Source: a virus. Taken from it: DNA of 32,467 bases. A program made the translations under genes and the position numbers. This document shows positions 3,503 through 32,467 of the stretch, piece by piece; position 1 is the stretch's first letter, and the number at the start of each line of letters is the position of its first letter. The notes beneath the pieces are model-generated. The model searched no databases and was not told the DNA's origin. It saw only the letters and a list, made by a program, of their open reading frames with translations. The DNA lies in the IMG/VR virus record IMGVR_UViG_3300044949_000477, positions 1-32,467 of that record, one strand, 5' to 3'.

Positions 3503-4060
3503 ATGGCAACAATAGTAAATAATATTGGTACTAATTACGTTCTATACTATAATGTAATTAACTACTTCAAAACAATAATGAAGAATCATCCAAGCATTCA
3601 AAGAGTGTCTTATGGTGATAATTTTGGTTTAGATAGTGATGAATTTCCACAATATCCATTGGGTAATGTGTTGATAACAAATGCTAGATTCGTTGATAAG
3701 ATAGTTAATTATACAGTCCAACTTACTATTGCCGATAAAGTTAAGTTAAAGAATAACGAAAGTATTGGTAGAACAAACTATGAAGAAGTGCCGTTTTTCG
3801 GAAGTGATGATACGGTAGATATTCACGCCAATACACTTTCAATACTAAATGATTTAATTTCATTTACACAAAGAGGTACTGAAGCATTTGATATTGTAAC
3901 TACTATGAATGCTGTACCATTTAAGAACGAATTTCCAAATGCTTTAGCAGGTTGGGTTTGTACATTTGATTTAGAAGTATTCAATCAGCAAGACATTTGT
4001 TTATATCCGAACTTATTGGGAACTCCACTAGATATCAAAGGTGTACAAACTGATTGTTAA
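3503..4060 (+). CDS. putative tail terminator / neck protein
   Basis: A 185-residue alpha/beta protein with a long N-terminal helix (YNVINYFKTIMKNHP), a central strand region ending at TIADKVKL, a helix with DIHANTLSILNDLISF and a C-terminal strand region (GWVCTFDLEVFNQQDIC). This helix-strand-helix-strand organisation, with position between the gp6-like connector and the gp10-like protein, suggests a tail-terminator or tail-completion role. It starts at ATG in the context TAATAATATG after the previous stop. No catalytic motif is visible and I could not confirm a family. Confidence 0.45.
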   Translation: MATIVNNIGTNYVLYYNVINYFKTIMKNHPSIQRVSYGDNFGLDSDEFPQYPLGNVLITNARFVDKIVNYTVQLTIADKVKLKNNESIGRTNYEEVPFFGSDDTVDIHANTLSILNDLISFTQRGTEAFDIVTTMNAVPFKNEFPNALAGWVCTFDLEVFNQQDICLYPNLLGTPLDIKGVQTDC

Positions 4061-4062
4061 TT

Positions 4063-4542
4063 ATGGCATTTACATTTCCAGGTGTTGAAGATATTGCAAA
4101 CTCATATAGAACATTAGCCCAACTATATATTATAGATGGGTATCCTAGTTGGGGTCAGGCTAAAAGTAATACTAGAAATGCTCCATACAAAACTGGTAAT
4201 CTTTACAACTCAATAGGTTCTTACAATACTGCCGCTAAAATGGCAACCGTAAGAGAATCAAAAGCTGCAAGTTTAGGTAAGGATAAAGTTGAATTACCAT
4301 CAATCACCCTATCTCTAAATTACGCACCACCACAAGCACAATATGGTAGATATGTACATCAGGGTACTGGTACAAACTCTCAAATAGGTCCAAGACCATT
4401 CGCACAATTGGCTGCAAACGATAGTAGATTTAAATTAGCGGTTGATAAAGCGATTGCAGGTAATGGTGGACCGATAGAAAAATACCTAGAAGCAGTAACT
4501 AAAAAGTTAGAAAAGGCGTTTGCAAAATACGGACAAATATAG
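4063..4542 (+). CDS. HK97 gp10-like head-tail joining / tail completion protein
   Basis: A 159-residue protein with the hallmarks of the HK97-gp10 family: PYKTGNLYNSIGSY (about 44-57), then ALNYAPPQ-like text (LSLNYAPPQAQYGRYVHQGT) and GPRPFAQLA before a basic C-terminal helix. The G(R)YVHxGT...RPF arrangement is the usual family signature. The start used here is the ATG two bases after the previous stop; a TTG three codons upstream would overlap the neighbour and is less likely. It ends in TAG, one of only two conserved-looking genes here that do so. Confidence 0.65.
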   Translation: MAFTFPGVEDIANSYRTLAQLYIIDGYPSWGQAKSNTRNAPYKTGNLYNSIGSYNTAAKMATVRESKAASLGKDKVELPSITLSLNYAPPQAQYGRYVHQGTGTNSQIGPRPFAQLAANDSRFKLAVDKAIAGNGGPIEKYLEAVTKKLEKAFAKYGQI

Positions 4543-4591
4543 TATCCGATATATTTTCTTTCTAAAAGGTTAAATTAATAAAAGATTTTAG

Positions 4592-5746
4592 ATGGCTTTA
4601 TCATACAATCAATATCCAGCTACGTGTTCTTTGGTTCAATCTCCAACGGTATTTACGTTGAAGGAGAGTGGAGAAGTGTACACATCAGCCTCATTTCAAT
4701 ACTATTTAGATTTATACTATTGGGATGGAACACCTAATAATTCAGGTTCATTATCAAATTACACATTAGTAAAATATCCAAATGCTTCTAATGTTGGTAT
4801 TTTTGATGTTGGTAGAATTCTTAACTCTACATTAACTGCATCGGTAGAAGGTAATCCTTCAAATATAAAATATTTTAAAGTTGATGGATATTATAGATAC
4901 CAATCAAGTTCTGTTTTTATAACATCTTCACATTTAGAAAGTGGTGTATATAAAGCATTAGATGGATATGCGATATTTGATGAACCAATAGGACAGGCAA
5001 TAACATCTAAATCTATTCACTGGCCATTAATGACAGATGGACCGGCATCACAATCAGTATTAGCAGAAGACTTAGGATTTGGTGGAGTGTATGTTGGAAC
5101 AACAGGTGGAACTCAACCTAACCGATTAGTTTATTCAGGTTCATTAGGAAACGCTGTATTCACATTAAGTGGTAGTGTATCATCTTCACAACAAGTTCAA
5201 CAATACCCTCTAGCACCTCAAGCGAACGGTTTCCCGATAAGTACAAATTCGGAGTGGTATTCTATCCAACCATTCAACAATACTACCGCATTGGGTACGC
5301 CAGTGTACTATGAGGTGGTTTGTAAACAAAAGTATCCAAACATTAGAATAAAATGGAAGAATAGATACGGACAATTTGATTTCTTCTCATTCTATATGGT
5401 GAATCGTCAATCATTCCAAACAACAAAGAGAAGTTATCAGCCGCAATTAGGAACGTGGACAGGTACATCTCTTTCTTACACACAATACGATAGTTCAAAC
5501 TTAAATTATATTGTAGATTCTAAACAATCAATTCAGGTAAATACTGATTGGGTTGATGAATCTTATAATGAAATATTCAAACAATTGTTAGTTTCAGAAG
5601 AAATTTATTGGGTTAAATCTGCTACTGACCTGTTACCTCTTACAATCAATACTGATAATGTAACGTTTAAGACTGGTGTTGTAGATAAGGTTATCCAATA
5701 CGGATTTGATTTTGATTTTGGACAGGGTTATAAACTTATATTATAA
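4592..5746 (+). CDS. putative distal tail / baseplate structural protein
   Basis: A 384-residue protein beginning MALSYNQYPATCSLVQSPTV, then a beta-rich body containing NASNVGIFDVGRIL and, around residues 250-280, IRIKWKNRYGQFDFFSFYM. The pattern PxxxSLVxSP near the start and W-x-N-R-x-G-x-x-D-x-F-x-F in the middle is one I associate with tail proteins of Bacteroidota siphophages upstream of the tape measure. The stop overlaps the next ATG by one base (TAATG), indicating coupled translation with the hub-like gene. The exact place in the tail tip is inferred. Confidence 0.5.
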   Translation: MALSYNQYPATCSLVQSPTVFTLKESGEVYTSASFQYYLDLYYWDGTPNNSGSLSNYTLVKYPNASNVGIFDVGRILNSTLTASVEGNPSNIKYFKVDGYYRYQSSSVFITSSHLESGVYKALDGYAIFDEPIGQAITSKSIHWPLMTDGPASQSVLAEDLGFGGVYVGTTGGTQPNRLVYSGSLGNAVFTLSGSVSSSQQVQQYPLAPQANGFPISTNSEWYSIQPFNNTTALGTPVYYEVVCKQKYPNIRIKWKNRYGQFDFFSFYMVNRQSFQTTKRSYQPQLGTWTGTSLSYTQYDSSNLNYIVDSKQSIQVNTDWVDESYNEIFKQLLVSEEIYWVKSATDLLPLTINTDNVTFKTGVVDKVIQYGFDFDFGQGYKLIL

Positions 5747-20030: not shown

Positions 20031-20336
20031 ATGGCAAAGTTTGAAGCAGGACATAAATTAAGTAAAGGCCGTCCAAAAGGAGCAGTCAATCGTTCAACCG
20101 AAATGATGAAGGTATCAATTGCACGTGCAACCAATAGAGTGTTGGATGAATTACCAAAGATATTGGATGAGATGATTAAGAAAGACCCAAAGGGAGCAGT
20201 GGATATCGCATTGAAGATGTTAGAGTTCCACATGCCGAAAATGAGTAGAGTAGAAATGAAAGCAGAAGTAGAACAAAGAATACAGCAGATATCAGTAAAC
20301 ATAACACAAAAGAGTATAGATGAACCTGGAAGTTAA
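20031..20336 (+). CDS. terminase small subunit-like protein
   Basis: A 101-residue protein beginning MAKFEAGHKLSKGRPKGAVN, with the basic GRPKGxxNR text typical of small terminase or DUF5681-type proteins that recognise phage DNA, followed by helices (RATNRVLDELPKILDEMIKK) likely to oligomerise. Its end overlaps the large terminase start by 17 bases, the usual adjacent order. It would bind the packaging site (not identified here) and help the large subunit. It is short for a small terminase. Confidence 0.6.
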   Translation: MAKFEAGHKLSKGRPKGAVNRSTEMMKVSIARATNRVLDELPKILDEMIKKDPKGAVDIALKMLEFHMPKMSRVEMKAEVEQRIQQISVNITQKSIDEPGS

Positions 20337-21483
20337 TACCACAATCACATACCAACACCAAAACGATTCACCTAGTAGAATAACAATTCACTATGGTGGA
20401 ACGAGAAGTGGAAAGACATATGCTTTAATTCAATGGATTATTGTAAAGTGTTTAGAAGGTAAAGAAGATGTGACAATAGTAAGAAAGACGATACCATCCC
20501 TAAAACGTACATTAATAAAAGATTTTAAGGATATAATGATTGAGATGGGTATATGGAATGAAAATGATTTTAATATATCAGATAGAATATACAAGTTCTA
20601 TACTGAATCAGAAATTAAGTTTGTAAGTACTGACGATCCTGATAAATTGAGAGGATTAAAGAGTAGTATCTTATGGTTAGATGAAGCGAATGAAATAGAT
20701 GAGGAATCATTTTTTCAATTACAAATACGTTGTACAGGCCCTATCATTCTAAGTCTGAATCCAACAATCTCGCCGCATCATTGGATAAGAGGATTAGAAA
20801 ATACTACACAATACTTTACCACATTCCGTCAAAATCCATATCTTAATAAAGAATTAGAAGATGCCATCAAAGCATTGGAAAGAACTAACCCTAAAGCATG
20901 GAGAACGTATGGATTAGGTGAGTTCGTACAAAATGATAAAGCAGTATTCCAATTCAATGTAGTAGATTGGATGCCGGATGATGCAGAGTTTCTTTGTATA
21001 GGAATAGATTTTGGATTTAGTAATGACCCAACTGCTATTGTATCAATATTCAAAAAGGATAGAGAAATCTATTTGGTTGAGAATTGTTATGAAAGAGGAT
21101 TGGTAACAAACGATATTGCATCTAAACTACGCCAAATAGTTGGAGATAATCGTTGGGAAATCTTTGCAGATAGTGCAGAACCTCGTTTGATAGAAGAATT
21201 ATACCGAATGGGATTCAATATAAGACCTGTAATAAAAGGAAAGGATAGTATTAACTTTGGAATACAAGTACTACAAAACTATTCTATAAACATTCCTAAA
21301 GCATGTCAGAATTTAGTTAATGAATTCTATGGATATGAATGGGAAACTGATAGGTTCGGTAGACAACAAGATAGACCGGTTGATTTTAACAATCACCTTA
21401 TTGATGCAGCCCGTTATGGTGCTATGATGAGATTATCACAAGTAGCAACTGCAAAAGGAAAATATGTAATTAGAGTACGATAA
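20320..21483 (+). CDS. terL: terminase large subunit
   Basis: A 387-residue protein carrying every part of a packaging motor-nuclease: Walker A GGTRSGKT (26-33), Walker B ILWLDE (117-122), coupling motif LSLNP (144-148), then the RNase H-like nuclease with IGIDFGF (Asp230), IFADSAEP (Asp284) and NNHLIDAARYG (Asp362). The order and length fit PBSX/Terminase_3-type enzymes. It cuts concatemeric DNA and pumps it into proheads. The ATG lies inside the end of the small subunit gene, giving coupled translation. Assignment is secure from the motifs. Confidence 0.95.
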   Translation: MNLEVNTTITYQHQNDSPSRITIHYGGTRSGKTYALIQWIIVKCLEGKEDVTIVRKTIPSLKRTLIKDFKDIMIEMGIWNENDFNISDRIYKFYTESEIKFVSTDDPDKLRGLKSSILWLDEANEIDEESFFQLQIRCTGPIILSLNPTISPHHWIRGLENTTQYFTTFRQNPYLNKELEDAIKALERTNPKAWRTYGLGEFVQNDKAVFQFNVVDWMPDDAEFLCIGIDFGFSNDPTAIVSIFKKDREIYLVENCYERGLVTNDIASKLRQIVGDNRWEIFADSAEPRLIEELYRMGFNIRPVIKGKDSINFGIQVLQNYSINIPKACQNLVNEFYGYEWETDRFGRQQDRPVDFNNHLIDAARYGAMMRLSQVATAKGKYVIRVR

Positions 21484-21493
21484 AATAAATAAT

Positions 21494-21811
21494 ATGAGTG
21501 AAGAATTAGATTTAGACAACTTAACAAAAATAGATTTTATAGAAATGGCAAAGTGGTGTCATCATTTAGAATCAGAAAACCGATTATTGATAGAACAATT
21601 AAGAGAAGCAAAAGCAGCAGTATTAGCAACTGTACAACAAAGAAATTCATTACATGCCAAACTACAAAACTTAATATCGGAGAGAATAAACACAATTGAT
21701 GTATCAGCAATACAAACTGAAATTGTATCAAATGTAGATTTTACAAACCCTGAAATGTATGCAGTACCAGAAGGTAAGGTATCAATAATAGAAAAAGCAG
21801 ATAGAATATGA
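21494..21811 (+). CDS. coiled-coil hypothetical protein
   Basis: A 105-residue acidic protein with a long helix (about 20-70: HHLESENRLLIEQLREAKAA and following) predicted to form a coiled coil, and a short structured end (EMYAVPEGKVSIIEK). It sits between terminase and the frameshifted gene, overlapping the latter in ATGA. It may be a packaging or tail-assembly accessory. No family recognised. Confidence 0.6.
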   Translation: MSEELDLDNLTKIDFIEMAKWCHHLESENRLLIEQLREAKAAVLATVQQRNSLHAKLQNLISERINTIDVSAIQTEIVSNVDFTNPEMYAVPEGKVSIIEKADRI

Positions 21812-22470
21812 AAAAAGAAATAAAAGTAGAAGTACCACAAAGTTGGAAAGCAGTAACATTAGAAGATTATTTAAAACTGCGTAAGGATATGGAAACGTAT
21901 AAGGATGATGATGAAGCACTTACTGCTTGTCTATTCCATCACCTATGCCATTTTCCATTAGAGTATCTACAACAAATGGATATCAACACTTACATAGCAA
22001 TAAAGGCTGATGTTTTAAAATTCTTTAACAATACAAACTATCCATTACAAAGATTCATCACAATAGATGGAGTTAAATACGGCTTTGAACCAAATCTATC
22101 AGAGATGGCGTACGGTGCTTATGTGGATATTTCAAAGTATGAGAACGTTGCTATTGATGATAAATGGGCTGAGATTATGAGTATCTTATATAGACCTGTT
22201 GTAAAGGAATCAGGTGCATTATATGATATAGAAGCATACACAGGTAAAATATATCCTGAAAAGTTTAAGAATATTACAATGGATATACACTTCGGCACAC
22301 TTTTTTTTTTGAGCAATTTATTAAAGGACTTATTGAACGCTACCCAGAAATCTTTGATGGAGGAATTAGCGGGGATGGACTTGCAGCCGAAGCTCAAGCA
22401 AATTTTGCTAGAAAATGGAAATCTTATTCATCAATTATCCAACTTGCACAAGGAGATATCACCAAAATAG
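21808..22470 (+). CDS. putative tail assembly chaperone, zero-frame product (220 aa)
   Basis: The first 167 residues look like an ordinary conserved domain (MKKEIKVEVPQSWKAVTLED start; GVKYGFEPNLSEMAYGAYVD middle; WAEIMSILYRP). I associate this type with gpG-like chaperones of Bacteroidota phages. After the T10 run the zero-frame tail (about 53 residues) is Leu/Asn/Lys-rich and not distinctive. A -1 shift instead gives a convincing second domain. The zero-frame form would be the major product if the frameshift is programmed, as in lambda G and GT. Confidence 0.6.
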   Translation: MKKEIKVEVPQSWKAVTLEDYLKLRKDMETYKDDDEALTACLFHHLCHFPLEYLQQMDINTYIAIKADVLKFFNNTNYPLQRFITIDGVKYGFEPNLSEMAYGAYVDISKYENVAIDDKWAEIMSILYRPVVKESGALYDIEAYTGKIYPEKFKNITMDIHFGTLFFLSNLLKDLLNATQKSLMEELAGMDLQPKLKQILLENGNLIHQLSNLHKEISPK

Positions 22471-22589
22471 ATGAAGTAGTATTACAACCATTGGAGAAAT
22501 GTTTATTATATCTAGCATACGAAGCAGATAAATACCAAGTTGAAGAATTGGTACACAAAGCTGCGATGAGGAAAGCTGGAGTTAAGTAA
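21808..22589 (+). CDS. putative tail assembly chaperone, -1 frameshift fusion (260 aa)
   Basis: The N-terminal 167 residues are joined by a -1 shift within the T run to 93 residues of the other frame. That extension reads FEQFIKGLIERYPEIFDGG at first and later SYSSIIQLAQGDITKIDEV and CLLYLAYEADKYQVEELV, which looks like a genuine conserved alpha-helical domain and resembles the C-terminal part I recall for this gene type. Frame continues without a stop to TAA at 22587-22589. A true deletion or insertion error in the homopolymer (T8 or T11 would restore one frame) is the alternative. The gene is far from the tape measure, unlike in lambda. Confidence 0.65.
22301..22310 (+). promoter_or_regulatory. 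candidate -1 frameshift site (T10)
   Basis: Ten Ts follow GGC ACA C. In the upstream frame the codons are CTT TTT TTT TTG, so the heptamer T-TTT-TTT allows tandem slippage by one base with full repairing. The new frame then reads GAG CAA TTT onward. No strong hairpin lies just downstream, so slippage would rest on the homopolymer itself. Confidence 0.65.
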
Positions 22590-22815: not shown

Positions 22816-23067
22816 ATGCCAACACCATCGTACAATTCAAATCAAAGAAAGAATACAGGTGTTTACTTTGGACCAACCAGAGGTAAAGCAACCGGAAGAA
22901 ACAAACGTAGAGGATGTCTATGTGTTGATACTGATATTTACTCAACTGAATGTTGTGAAGGTGCATTGATTAACCAAACTATTGGACAAACGCAATCGGC
23001 TTTCAATAATCGTAGAGGTGCATTCAGTAATGGTTTCAGTAATGGATTTGATGTAGGTCAGATATAA
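22816..23067 (+). CDS. small CxC-x9-CC protein, copy B (83 aa)
   Basis: An 83-residue protein sharing GCLC...IYSTECCEG (Cys34, Cys36, Cys46, Cys47; C-x-C-x9-CC) with its upstream neighbour. It has a longer C-terminal part rich in Asn, Gly, Phe and Arg (NNRRGAF, SNGFSNGFD). The N-terminus is basic (TRGKATGRNKRR). It lies just ahead of the giant fibre gene and could be an adaptor that joins fibres to the tail or virion. That is inference from position. Confidence 0.7.
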   Translation: MPTPSYNSNQRKNTGVYFGPTRGKATGRNKRRGCLCVDTDIYSTECCEGALINQTIGQTQSAFNNRRGAFSNGFSNGFDVGQI

Positions 23068-23095: not shown

Positions 23096-26000
23096 ATGTC
23101 TCAATTAAATAAAACGCAATTAGAGCAAGTAAACCAAACTAACTTCCCTAATAATACGGTACAATTCATTACTCCACAAAAGTTGAGAGAAATGAATACT
23201 GATATTATTGACAGTATGGTTGATGAAATCAGTTATAATGTAGATTCTGCTTCATTCTCATCTTCAATTGATAACTTACAAGACCAAATCAATACGTTGG
23301 TTGTAAGTGGTAGTGGTATTTTCATACAAAACGAAGGTACACTATTAGGTATTGCAACTGATTTGGATTTTGTTGGAGATGCAGTGAATACAACCTTAAT
23401 GGGTTCATCTGCAAAGATTAGTATTCAAGCAGTAACAACTTCTTCATTCAATCAGTACACTCAATCAAATGATAGTAAAGTAAATTCATTGATAAGTAAA
23501 ACTGGTTCATTTGCTACAACTGGTTCAAATACATTTGTTGGAAGCCAAATTGTAAATGGTTCAATAACTGCATCAGTTGGTTTGAAAGTTACCGAAATTA
23601 CAAATAATGGAACACCGATATCAATAGAAAGTGATACAAATGTAAATGGTGACCTTGCAATTGCGGACATACTATATGTAAATCATATTGAAGAAGAATC
23701 TAATAATGCTGGTATAATATACAAAGCAGGTACACCTGGTCATATGTTTACAGGTAGTATTAACGTTTCTGGTTCTTTAAAAGTAAATAATTCATTTACA
23801 GCTTCTTTAAGAGAAGGATATGCGTGGATTGGTGGTGTAGGTAACGTTTCTAATTTAGTTGCTACATCTTCGTTTATTGCAATTGGTACATCAGGTACTT
23901 CTGGTAAAGATGGTACATCTGGTACAGCCGGCTCATCAGGTACATCTGGAGTGAGCGGTACATCTGGTATTTCTGGAAGTTCAGGCACATCCGGTGAAAG
24001 TGGCACATCAGGTAGTTCAGGAAGTAGTGGTGTAAGTGGTACATCAGGAAGTTCAGGAAGTAGTGGTACTTCGGGTTCTTCTGGTGTAAGTGGCAGTTCT
24101 GGTACATCTGGAGTGAGTGGTACATCGGGAAGTTCCGGTTCATCTGGTTCATCAGGAGTTAGTGGCACATCAGGTACTTCAGGTAGTTCAGGAAGTAGTG
24201 GTGTAAGTGGCACTTCTGGAACATCAGGTAGTTCTGGTAGTTCAGGTATTAGTGGCACATCGGGAAGTTCTGGTTCATCAGGTACTTCTGGAGAGAGTGG
24301 AACATCAGGTAGTTCCGGTAAAGATGGTACGAATGGATTAAATGGTTCAAACGGTACCTCTGGTATAAGTGGCACAAATGGTACTGCAGGTACATCGGGT
24401 ACTTCTGGTTTTAATGGACAAGCAAGTGGTAGAGTATATTACTTTAATGGTAGTATTACAGGCTCAGTATCTTCTTCAGTTTATAGACAATTGGGAGTTG
24501 AACCTGGTAACACAGTAACACCATATATTGTATCACAATCGCTTTCAGGTTCAGGCCAACCTCAATTATTAGCAAGTTATATAACCGAACCTTTAGGATT
24601 TACAACAATACCTGGTGGATTGCAGACATTCTATATGGAGTTCTTAAAACCTGCAGCAAATGATATAATCCAAGCACAAGTAGGATTGCAATTGGCTGAT
24701 GTAAATGGTAACCCATCTGGTTCACTTTTAACTTCATCTTTATTCCCAGTACTTTTTAATGATGATACATTCCCTTCACAAACAAGAATAGATACCGTAT
24801 TCCCATCAACACTTATCAATTCATCTTCAAGAATGATTGTAACTGTTTACGCTAGAAACGAAACAGCTTCAGCAAAAGAAATCCAATTTTGGACAGAAGA
24901 TGCATACTTCTCTTATGTAGTGACATCAGTAGGATTAGAGAACGGAACTTCAGGCACTTCAGGTACTTCAGGAACTTCTGGACAAAATGGAACATCTGGA
25001 CAAAATGGAACTAATGGTACGAGTGGTACATCAGGATTTTCAATAGATAGTGGCTCATTCGTAACCACATCATCGTTTAATAACTTTACTTCATCAGTTG
25101 TATTAAATTCACAAACTGCTTCAATGACTGTACTATCTGCATCCTTTGCAAGTACATCATCTTTAGCAAGAACAGCAACAACTGCAAGTTTCGCTCTTAC
25201 ATCTTCAATAGCTGTAAGTTCATCATTCGCAACTACATCAACTTCTGCTTCAGTAGCAGTAAGTTCATCAGTTGCCACATCAGCAAGTTTTGCAACATCT
25301 GCATCATTCGCAACAACAGCTTCATTCTTAAGTGGCAGTGTAGCTAGTGCATCATTTGCAACATCTGCATCTTTTGCAAGTACGGCATCTTTCTTTAGTG
25401 GAAGTGTAACTAGTGCATCATTCGCTACAACTGCGAGTTTTGCAACTACTGCTGGAACAGCCTCATTCTTTAGTGGAAGTGTGGCAAGTGCATCGTTTGC
25501 AACTTCAGCTAGTTTTGCAGCAACTGCTTCATTCTTTAGTGGAAGTGTATCTCAATCAATAAGTTCTTCATTCGCAACAACTGCTTCATTTGCAACCACA
25601 GCGGCAACTGCTTCATTTGCATTAAATGCGGCATCGTTCCCATTCACTGGTTCAGCTCAAATAACTGGCTCTTTAGGTGTGACTGGTTCTATAAATGTAC
25701 AAAGTAGTAGTTTAGCAGGAACATTTAGCGGAAGTGTAATTACAAATTTAGGTGACATATATACTACCGTAGCAGCGGCAACAAAGATAGTAACAATAGA
25801 TTCATCTTCATATGGTACTTTATTATCCAGTGGAACTGCTGACGCTAACACACTTTATTTCATAAGCGGAAGTACAACAATAGTACCTTCTGCATCATTC
25901 GCAACAACTGCTTCATTTGCAACTACGGCGGCAACTGCTTCATTCTTTAGTGGAAGTGTAGCTAGTGCATCCTTTGCTACATCGGCAAGTTTTGCAGCAA

Positions 26001-26749
26001 CTGCTTCATTCTTTAGTGGAAGTGTATCTCAATCAATAAGTTCATCATTTGCAACAACTGCTTCATTTGCAATAACTGCATCTTACGCACTTAATGCGGC
26101 AAGTGCAGCATCATTCCCATTCTCTGGTTCAGCGAGAATTACTGGTTCATTGGATGTGACTGGTTCGGTGAATGTATCTGGTAGTTATTTAATTACTTCA
26201 CAATCATTTACTGGTTCATTAATAGATAACGTATCTCCAACAACTACAAACGTAGCACCGGTAAGACACGTAATATCAATAACATCAGCATCTTACGCAG
26301 CATTAGTAACAAAAGACCCTAATACATTATATGTAATATCTGGTTCGGCTATCACCGGTAGTGGTGGTGGAACTAGTGCTGGATTCCCATTCACCGGTTC
26401 TGCTGTAATTACTGGTTCATTAATTGTGACTGGTTCTAGTAGAGGTAACGTTGTATCAATGAGTATTGCTTCATCAACCGCTTCATTGGATATGGATGCA
26501 GGAAACTACTTTACTTGTTTAGCTAGTGGAAACTTCTTTGTAAACGTAACCAATTTAAGACCTGGCGATACTGCAAACTTAGTATTAACAACTGTGGGTA
26601 TAGCAACTGCATCATTCAGTACAAACGTAAAACAACCATCTGGTTCACTTTATAGACCAACATCTGGAAGTAACAATGTGGATGTACTATCTTTTGTAAG
26701 TGTAGATGCATCAAATGTGTATTTAGTATCAGCTAAAAAATTCGTATAA
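23096..26749 (+). CDS. giant tail fibre / adhesin with Gly-X-Y and ASFATT-type repeats
   Basis: A 1217-residue protein in five parts. The N-terminal part (1-260) includes FPNNTVQFITPQKLREMNTD, typical of fibre heads that attach to a tail. Residues 264-441 are collagen-like Gly-X-Y triplets made of Thr, Ser and Val instead of Pro (GTSGSSGVSG). A globular domain follows (about 441-615), then a short second Gly-X-Y stretch (about 617-650). Last come repeats of ASFATTASF and FFSGSV type with TGSLxVTGS modules, ending in a compact tip. The fibre would contact the host surface. Block repeats inside suggest length change by recombination. Antisense frames across the repeats are artefacts of composition. 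Confidence 0.75.
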   Translation: MSQLNKTQLEQVNQTNFPNNTVQFITPQKLREMNTDIIDSMVDEISYNVDSASFSSSIDNLQDQINTLVVSGSGIFIQNEGTLLGIATDLDFVGDAVNTTLMGSSAKISIQAVTTSSFNQYTQSNDSKVNSLISKTGSFATTGSNTFVGSQIVNGSITASVGLKVTEITNNGTPISIESDTNVNGDLAIADILYVNHIEEESNNAGIIYKAGTPGHMFTGSINVSGSLKVNNSFTASLREGYAWIGGVGNVSNLVATSSFIAIGTSGTSGKDGTSGTAGSSGTSGVSGTSGISGSSGTSGESGTSGSSGSSGVSGTSGSSGSSGTSGSSGVSGSSGTSGVSGTSGSSGSSGSSGVSGTSGTSGSSGSSGVSGTSGTSGSSGSSGISGTSGSSGSSGTSGESGTSGSSGKDGTNGLNGSNGTSGISGTNGTAGTSGTSGFNGQASGRVYYFNGSITGSVSSSVYRQLGVEPGNTVTPYIVSQSLSGSGQPQLLASYITEPLGFTTIPGGLQTFYMEFLKPAANDIIQAQVGLQLADVNGNPSGSLLTSSLFPVLFNDDTFPSQTRIDTVFPSTLINSSSRMIVTVYARNETASAKEIQFWTEDAYFSYVVTSVGLENGTSGTSGTSGTSGQNGTSGQNGTNGTSGTSGFSIDSGSFVTTSSFNNFTSSVVLNSQTASMTVLSASFASTSSLARTATTASFALTSSIAVSSSFATTSTSASVAVSSSVATSASFATSASFATTASFLSGSVASASFATSASFASTASFFSGSVTSASFATTASFATTAGTASFFSGSVASASFATSASFAATASFFSGSVSQSISSSFATTASFATTAATASFALNAASFPFTGSAQITGSLGVTGSINVQSSSLAGTFSGSVITNLGDIYTTVAAATKIVTIDSSSYGTLLSSGTADANTLYFISGSTTIVPSASFATTASFATTAATASFFSGSVASASFATSASFAATASFFSGSVSQSISSSFATTASFAITASYALNAASAASFPFSGSARITGSLDVTGSVNVSGSYLITSQSFTGSLIDNVSPTTTNVAPVRHVISITSASYAALVTKDPNTLYVISGSAITGSGGGTSAGFPFTGSAVITGSLIVTGSSRGNVVSMSIASSTASLDMDAGNYFTCLASGNFFVNVTNLRPGDTANLVLTTVGIATASFSTNVKQPSGSLYRPTSGSNNVDVLSFVSVDASNVYLVSAKKFV
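23886..24419 (+). repeat. DNA coding collagen-like Gly-X-Y repeats
   Basis: About 178 consecutive codons follow a Gly-X-Y pattern, encoded by imperfect 9- and 18-base units such as GGTACATCAGGA and GGTAGTTCAGGA. Such DNA is prone to slippage, giving fibres of different length among related phages. A shorter set of the same kind lies at about 24946-25045. Confidence 0.75.
25463..25700 (+). repeat. fibre block repeat, copy 1 (partner at 25940-26177)
   Basis: This segment and 25940-26177 can be aligned with a constant offset of 477 bases (159 codons). Shared text includes TCATTCTTTAGTGGAAGTGT, the TCTCAATCAATAAGTTC run and the TTCCCATTC-CTGGTTCAGC module. A third, shorter copy of the last module lies near 26384. 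In-frame duplication has lengthened the shaft. Confidence 0.7.
25940..26177 (+). repeat. fibre block repeat, copy 2
   Basis: Partner of the block at 25463. The copies differ by scattered, mostly third-position changes plus a small in-frame difference near the ACTTAATGCGGC segment, so the duplication is not very recent. Confidence 0.7.
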
Positions 26750-31900: not shown

Positions 31901-32467
31901 ATGAGAAAACAACAAAACTTTCAACAACCGATTTTCACTCAGAACACATATGCTGGTGAATTCGCAGGGAAGTACATTGCAGCAGCGTTGTTATCAGCTA
32001 AAACATTGGACAACCAATACATCACAATCATGCCGAATGTGAAGTATAAGAGTGTAATCCAATCAGTTGCAGTTGATTCAATCGTGAACGATGCATCTTG
32101 TAACTTCACTACTTCTGGTACTGTGGCTCTTTCTGAAAGAATCCTTGAACCAAAAGAACTTCAAGTTAACCTTGAATTATGTAAGCAAGAGTTCGTAGAT
32201 TCTTGGGAAGCTTTACAATTGGGCTATAGCGCATTTGATGAGATTCCAAAAGATTTCAACGATTTCTTAATCTCTTATGTTGGTGGTAAAGTAGCACAAG
32301 CTACCGAAGAATCAATTTGGAGAGGTACTGCAGCAACTAATGGACAATTCCAAGGTATCTATACCGCATTGTCTTCTTCAGTTGTAGCAGGTGGAGCAAC
32401 TGCTCCTGTAACATCTTCTGTTTCAGGTTCTATCACTTCTGCAAACGTATTAACTGCGTTAAATGCA
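31901..32467 (+). CDS. major capsid protein, N-terminal part (runs off the end, continues at base 1)
   Basis: ATG AGA AAA begins a frame open to the end of the window. 136 codons precede the repeat that starts at 32309, where it matches base 1 in the same frame; the joined product is 318 residues. The N-terminal 100 residues include TYAGEFAGKYIAAALLSAKT and an ELCKQEFVDSWEAL-like helix (NLELCKQEFVDSWEALQLGY). Neighbouring scaffold and tail genes support the capsid call. The AAC at 31-33 and AAT at 32339-32341 both code Asn. Confidence 0.85.
   Translation, partial: MRKQQNFQQPIFTQNTYAGEFAGKYIAAALLSAKTLDNQYITIMPNVKYKSVIQSVAVDSIVNDASCNFTTSGTVALSERILEPKELQVNLELCKQEFVDSWEALQLGYSAFDEIPKDFNDFLISYVGGKVAQATEESIWRGTAATNGQFQGIYTALSSSVVAGGATAPVTSSVSGSITSANVLTALNA
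32309..32467 (+). repeat. terminal direct repeat with bases 1-159 (circular genome)
   Basis: All 159 bases match 1-159 except C33 versus T32341. The repeat lies inside the capsid gene and keeps the frame. This is the overlap expected when a circular or terminally redundant genome is opened at an arbitrary point by assembly, not a biological terminal repeat, although headful packaging cannot be excluded. The single silent difference suggests a mixed population or a read error. Confidence 0.9.

Follow-up and report, generated by a model that had tools for sequence, protein, structure and literature searches.

The stretch of DNA analysed here, referred to below as the window, comprises all 32,467 nucleotides of the viral record IMGVR_UViG_3300044949_000477 of IMG/VR. 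Downstream of the terminase large subunit gene (terL), it carries a 220-codon gene that crosses a run of ten Ts and whose -1 frame stays open between 22269 and 22589 (Table 1). The 0-frame codons across the run are CTT TTT TTT TTG, and a -1 slip at TTT TTT yields a 260-aa product, 93 residues of which lie in the new frame. Inspection of the window confirmed the elements from which an earlier sequence-only reading had proposed a frameshift at this site, namely the T10 run, its codon phase, the 220-aa frame and the -1 frame open to 22589. Its arithmetic, by which a T8 or a T11 run would join the two frames, is also correct. The T10 run is the sole run of at least nine A or T in the window, where the next homopolymers by length have 7 nucleotides, and only 31 other runs of this kind occur across 1.79 Mb of related contigs.

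Table 1. Features of the frameshift locus and related genes in the window.
Feature	Position	Strand	Evidence or remark
Tape measure candidate, 809 aa	8424..10853	+	phrog_1272 (E 6.6e-5), phrog_58 (E 0.0015); 11 kb from the frameshift gene
Terminase large subunit	20320..21483	+	phrog_2 (E 5.8e-45), Terminase_3 (E 5.3e-22); 324 bases upstream of the frameshift gene
Small ORF between terminase and frameshift gene, 105 aa	21494..21811	+	Match in 117 of 221 related loci
0-frame gene, 220 aa, short product (gpG/gpE-like)	21808..22470	+	ORF; conserved in the 47 loci listed by the first search
Shared N-terminal domain, ~165 residues	21808..22302	+	Weak Phage_TAC_7, phrog_166 and phrog_3140 matches; distant Duneviridae/Helgolandviridae homologue
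T10 slippery run	22301..22310	+	In-phase T_TTT_TTT kept in 152 of 152 distinct gene sequences listed
In-phase heptamers	T_TTT_TTT, 22302-22308; T_TTT_TTG, 22305-22311	+	Within the T10 run
-1-frame extension, helical domain	22308..22589	+	93 codons plus stop; conserved in relatives
0-frame C-terminal tail	22309..22470	+	53 codons past the heptamer plus stop; dual-coding with the -1 frame

In each of the 207 related loci whose sequence extends far enough upstream, terL was found ahead of the frameshift gene, in nearly every case at a distance of no more than 1.2 kb. The sequence-only reading had correctly placed the gene beside the terminase and far from the tape measure gene; it had called this position unusual, a description that has to be qualified because the position is a trait of the whole group. 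On the other side of the gene, an 83-aa ORF of no clear family (22816-23067) has a match in 150 of the 221 related loci, and positions 23096-26749 encode a 1217-aa tail fibre-like protein with long collagen-like GTSG/SGTSG repeats. Furthermore, positions 1-159 of the window recur at 32309-32467 (32 exact bases, one mismatch, then identity again over the stretch viewed), suggesting that the contig probably closes on itself and that the genome is near complete.

Conservation of the T run and of both reading frames

Relatives were sought in IMG/VR and in the cultured Nonlabens phages P12024S and P12024L. Each search contributed at most its best 80 loci, and loci were picked by similarity to known members. 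A first IMG/VR search with the 220-aa protein as query listed 47 loci sharing 48-100% identity; the in-phase T_TTT_TTT is kept in all those in which the site is present, and the -1 ORF ends past the 0-frame stop in all those that are complete. In alignments from a wider search, the second domain was offset by -1 from the N-terminal domain in 169 of the 169 listed loci holding both, and no single-frame fusion of the two domains was observed among them. The heptamer was not required for inclusion in this set, yet all 169 listed loci contain it. The site was again kept in ~60 further listed loci related to P12024S. After de-duplication, the listed loci amounted to 152 distinct gene sequences in ~98 clusters, many of them mutually related, so that 152 is not a tally of independent events. 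All 152 exhibit the in-phase T_TTT_TTT and a -1 ORF ending beyond the 0-frame stop; this final gathering demanded TTTTTTT, and the few loci that failed were fragments starting inside the gene. The run is T10 in 85, T9 in 65 and T7 in 2 of the distinct sequences listed, and the slip site persists in P12024S and its relatives, where protein identity has fallen to 25-27%.

Alignment of the 93-residue extension with related phage proteins, a check suggested by the sequence-only reading, recovered this domain, in the -1 frame in every case. All 68 representatives share invariant F, W, Y and L positions, and the conserved motifs include W..Y, LA.GDI and PLEKCLL..AY.AD. The same reading had stated that relatives with one uninterrupted frame and lacking a T run would speak against a frameshift. 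None occurs among the 169 listed two-domain loci, whereas distant homologues of the N-terminal domain alone are single-frame proteins of 259-301 aa.

These comparisons bear directly on homopolymer error in sequencing or assembly, which had been put forward as the main alternative. In that case the true gene would have T8 or T11 and encode its 260 residues in one frame, and T10 is the type of run that older pyrosequencing miscounted. Nevertheless, T10 is present in every contig of other metagenomes that shares 95.7-100% identity with the window across the stretch compared, the 152 distinct sequences listed combine T7, T9 or T10 with domains that are always in different frames, the cultured phages P12024S/L show the same arrangement with T9, and both frames are under selection, as described below. 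Because relatives always keep the site with the domains in separate frames, we reject a sequencing error as vanishingly improbable. Taken together, the sequences strongly support the view that a programmed -1 event takes place at the T run and has been conserved.

The 0-frame tail, dismissed as bland by the sequence-only reading, proved to be conserved and selected, with a recurring pattern NLL.DLL...KSL...P..IK.IL..SG. In the 24 sequences tested, it is open for 37-57 codons (mean 48), compared to the 12 codons expected when the -1 protein is kept and synonymous codons are redrawn. The excess was clear in most of the 24 and unclear in four (L033, L034, L035 and L041). Furthermore, the fraction of synonymous differences in the -1 frame of 56 sequences was 0.05 over the slip and 0.28-0.31 in codons 8-39, then mostly ~0.5 beyond codon 39 with one later block at 0.31; for comparison, this fraction was 0.41-0.50 in the N-terminal domain. 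The overlong 0-frame opening and the nearly halved synonymous change in the -1 frame indicate that the tail is dual-coding, as both frames show signs of selection at the sequence level over the first 40 codons past the slip.

Across the family listed, 16-84 codons follow the slip in the 0 frame (median 51), compared to 53 in the window. In a set of distant relatives (L193, L204-L236 and similar), the 0-frame tail reaches 79-84 codons and the -1 frame ends just 7-12 codons past the 0-frame stop, the two frames overlapping almost completely. We lean, by a small degree, towards the view that both C-termini, the 0-frame tail of ~40-55 residues (up to 84) and the -1 domain of ~90, are functional and selected in a large, mostly unannotated group of Bacteroidota phages with the gene in the terminase neighbourhood. 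Selection on both ends would mean, with the same slight preference, that frameshifting exchanges one working C-terminus for a second instead of merely adding one.

Mechanism of the frame change

Ribosomal -1 slippage at T_TTT_TTT is the mechanism that we favour, since the E gene of phage P2 uses T_TTT_TTG and since two distinct sequences of the family have exactly T7 in the right phase. P2 slips at T_TTT_TTG to produce E and E+E' without downstream structure, the lack of which is also reported for its relatives (PMC3091744), and we confirmed the presence of this site in the P2 sequence. In the family described here, no downstream RNA structure stood out as a stimulator in 68 sequences compared with base-composition shuffles (mean z +0.2). 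An upstream Shine-Dalgarno-like stimulator is not general either, as GGAG was found within 30 bases upstream of the site in 27 of 68 sequences.

Two other routes to the -1 domain were weighed against ribosomal slippage. RNA polymerase could add or drop a U on T9 or T10, in which case some mRNAs would carry the fused frame. We retain such transcriptional slippage as an unlikely yet serious competitor because 150 of the 152 distinct sequences listed have T9 or T10, lengths at which RNA polymerase can slip. T9 runs were found in all three phases, as slippage by the polymerase would permit, every T9 run holds an in-phase heptamer in any case, and the lack of a prominent downstream RNA structure is also consistent with transcriptional slippage. 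However, the two T7 sequences have only the seven Ts and in the phase that ribosomal slippage needs, and the extra Ts of most T10 members can be explained by hydrophobic residues (xTT before, TTN after). Moreover, known tail chaperones built in this way use ribosomal frameshifting (PMC5009743; P2 at TTTTTTG, PMC3091744). The other route, by which the -1 frame would be a separate overlapping gene with its own internal start, corresponds to the annotation of P12024S gp39, whose ATG overlaps the stop of gp38. While an ATG giving at least 70 residues is available in 11 of the 68 representatives, the remaining 57 lack one. In the window, the first ATG of the -1 frame comes only 7 codons before its end, and 61 codons separate the slip from the first ATG, GTG or TTG, which falls within the domain; an internal start was therefore rejected there. 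Given the lack of an early start codon, and since an independent gene would leave the conserved T run purposeless, we consider this route highly improbable.

Identity and genomic context of the gene product

The gene architecture and weak homology make it likely that the product is a tail assembly chaperone. Phage_TAC_7 (PF10109) matches the N-terminal domain in 22 of 68 members at E<=0.1 (best E 1.6e-4). The window gene, the only Phage_TAC_7 match in its genome, scores 14.1 bits, below the curated cut-off of 25, and on this score we do not file it under that family. phrog_166 ('tail protein') matches 25 of 68 members (best E 3.5e-5), in the window protein over the same N-terminal region as Phage_TAC_7, and phrog_3140 ('tail assembly chaperone') matches 3 of 68. 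phrog_32199, the family of P12024S gp38, matches residues 6-182 of the window protein (E 1.8e-10) as well as all 68 representatives. A search of NCBIfam returned no chaperone match, and no relative turned up in cellular genomes. The tail chaperone with a -1 site that the sequence-only reading had proposed is strongly supported as regards the site, conserved in the 152 distinct sequences listed, and is a likely assignment as regards the chaperone, for which profile matches are weak.

AlphaFold2 models were made separately for the 0-frame product and for the -1 extension. The 220-aa short product was modelled with a pLDDT of 84; it is confident to about residue 180, includes a helix from residue 158 to 189 that spans the slip, and is of low confidence over the final 25-30 residues. 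The extension was modelled as helices with a pLDDT of 80, in agreement with the helical domain anticipated from the sequence. Foldseek matched the short product to unnamed viral proteins, to the 175-residue P12024S gp38 and to one 'Tail assembly chaperone protein' (E 1.5e-3). Against the PDB, Foldseek gave no match to the short product at E<=0.001, the best VIA-align Z was 2.6, and sequence searches found no match. The model of the -1 domain was compared with viral predicted structures, where the best E was 1.6e-3 and the good matches include no named protein.

The location of the gene could instead suggest a protein that is truly frameshifted and serves as another packaging or neck factor, as terL precedes its gene in each of the 207 loci that allowed this check and the chaperone profile matches are weak. 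We regard such a function as rather unlikely: the profiles that do match family members are Phage_TAC_7, the tail family phrog_166 and the chaperone family phrog_3140, Phage_TAC_7 has no second match in the window, and the gene that directly precedes the tape measure gene is a member of a different family, phrog_38559. In P12024S, the gene comes directly after terL and heads a series that includes the neck protein gp42, gp44 and the likely tape measure protein gp49, whose gene starts ~6.4 kb downstream. The window counterparts of gp42 and gp44 were found at 4054-5746, ahead of the tape measure candidate, suggesting that the pair formed by terL and the putative chaperone gene was probably split from the tail module by rearrangement.

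Our preferred explanation, which we hold as probable, is that the locus is a tail chaperone gene of a long-tailed phage of Bacteroidota, distantly akin to P12024S/L, and that programmed -1 ribosomal frameshifting yields two proteins from this locus. The majority of ribosomes would stay in frame at T_TTT_TTT and produce the 220-aa protein, composed of the chaperone domain and the conserved tail. In a presumed minority of ribosomes, two Phe-tRNAs would re-pair one base back, leading to the 260-aa protein in which the 93-residue helical domain takes the place of the 0-frame tail. If the parallel with lambda gpG/gpGT holds, the tape measure protein would be coated by the shared domain, and recruitment of the major tail protein would fall to the -1 domain.

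The principle of a frameshifted tail chaperone is already known; what is new here is the long selected overlap and the terminase neighbourhood. We found nothing specific in the literature on frameshifting in chaperones of Bacteroidetes phages, and found no description of this conserved -1 recoding site, which recurs in a large group of environmental phages. A chaperone role would give a function to a gene annotated in the cultured members as two hypothetical proteins, and these cultured relatives, P12024S/L, make the frameshift reading directly testable. Selection apparently acts on both frames of the same nucleotides over ~40 codons, a stretch much longer than in lambda or P2, so that the gene would offer a clean natural system in which to test the working of a tail chaperone that has two alternative C-termini. 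Its location also suggests that a tail chaperone gene need not adjoin the tape measure gene.

Comparison with known systems

The E/E+E' gene of P2 (Peduoviridae, Phage_TAC_7 family) resembles the window gene in its -1 slip at an in-phase T-rich heptamer, its common N-terminus and its lack of downstream structure, and the N-terminal domain described here weakly matches the Pfam family of the P2 protein. In contrast, gpE has 91 aa with 6 codons after the slip, compared to 220 aa and 53 codons in the window, and E+E' overlaps the start of the tape measure gene T, whereas the neighbour here is the terminase gene. Direct comparison of the two -1 domains by hhalign gave no match, in a test that used a single sequence and had low power, and a similar comparison with gpE was no more informative. 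As in lambda gpG/gpGT, where the short protein has a longer -1 fusion counterpart that bears its own C-terminal domain (PMC5009743), a predicted in-phase -1 slippery site joins two ORFs, and the product is longer in the -1 frame. The likeness is one of architecture; lambda uses the slippery sequence G_GGA_AAG followed by 5 codons. Furthermore, the lambda gene lies between those for the major tail protein V and the tape measure protein H; unlike gpG/gpGT-type genes, the window gene is not found between major tail protein and tape measure genes. The overlap of the -1 frame with the short ORF is no more than 17 codons long in HK97, compared to 16-84 here. Overlap length was compared with these three known systems, and in the window the slip is not near the end of the short ORF as it is in lambda and P2, a placement that is not known to be a requirement.

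Proteins of Duneviridae and Helgolandviridae, such as Ingeline1_5 and Leef1_2, are distant homologues of the N-terminal domain (hhalign probability 95.5%, E 1.6e-8). They differ in being encoded in a single frame, and their C-terminal part has no match to the -1 domain. The Ingeline_1 homologue is located between adaptor and tape measure genes, three genes upstream of the annotated tape measure protein. Flavobacterium phage 6H was considered as the carrier of a second frameshift gene and rejected, as its gp10 (L238:10352-10927) is a truncated copy, 191 aa long, of a protein that is single-frame in relatives. The near relative FPSV-F7 encodes 293 aa in one frame, and the two sequences diverge near a T6 run that immediately precedes the stop in 6H, through either a sequencing error or a real mutation.

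The closest counterpart among cultured phages is found in P12024S/L (Inhavirus), in which a homologous gene following terL has an in-phase T_TTT_TTT within T9 and the same -1 domain. It differs by its 25-27% identity and its 0-frame tail of 25 codons, and its two parts are annotated in P12024S as the separate hypothetical proteins gp38 and gp39.
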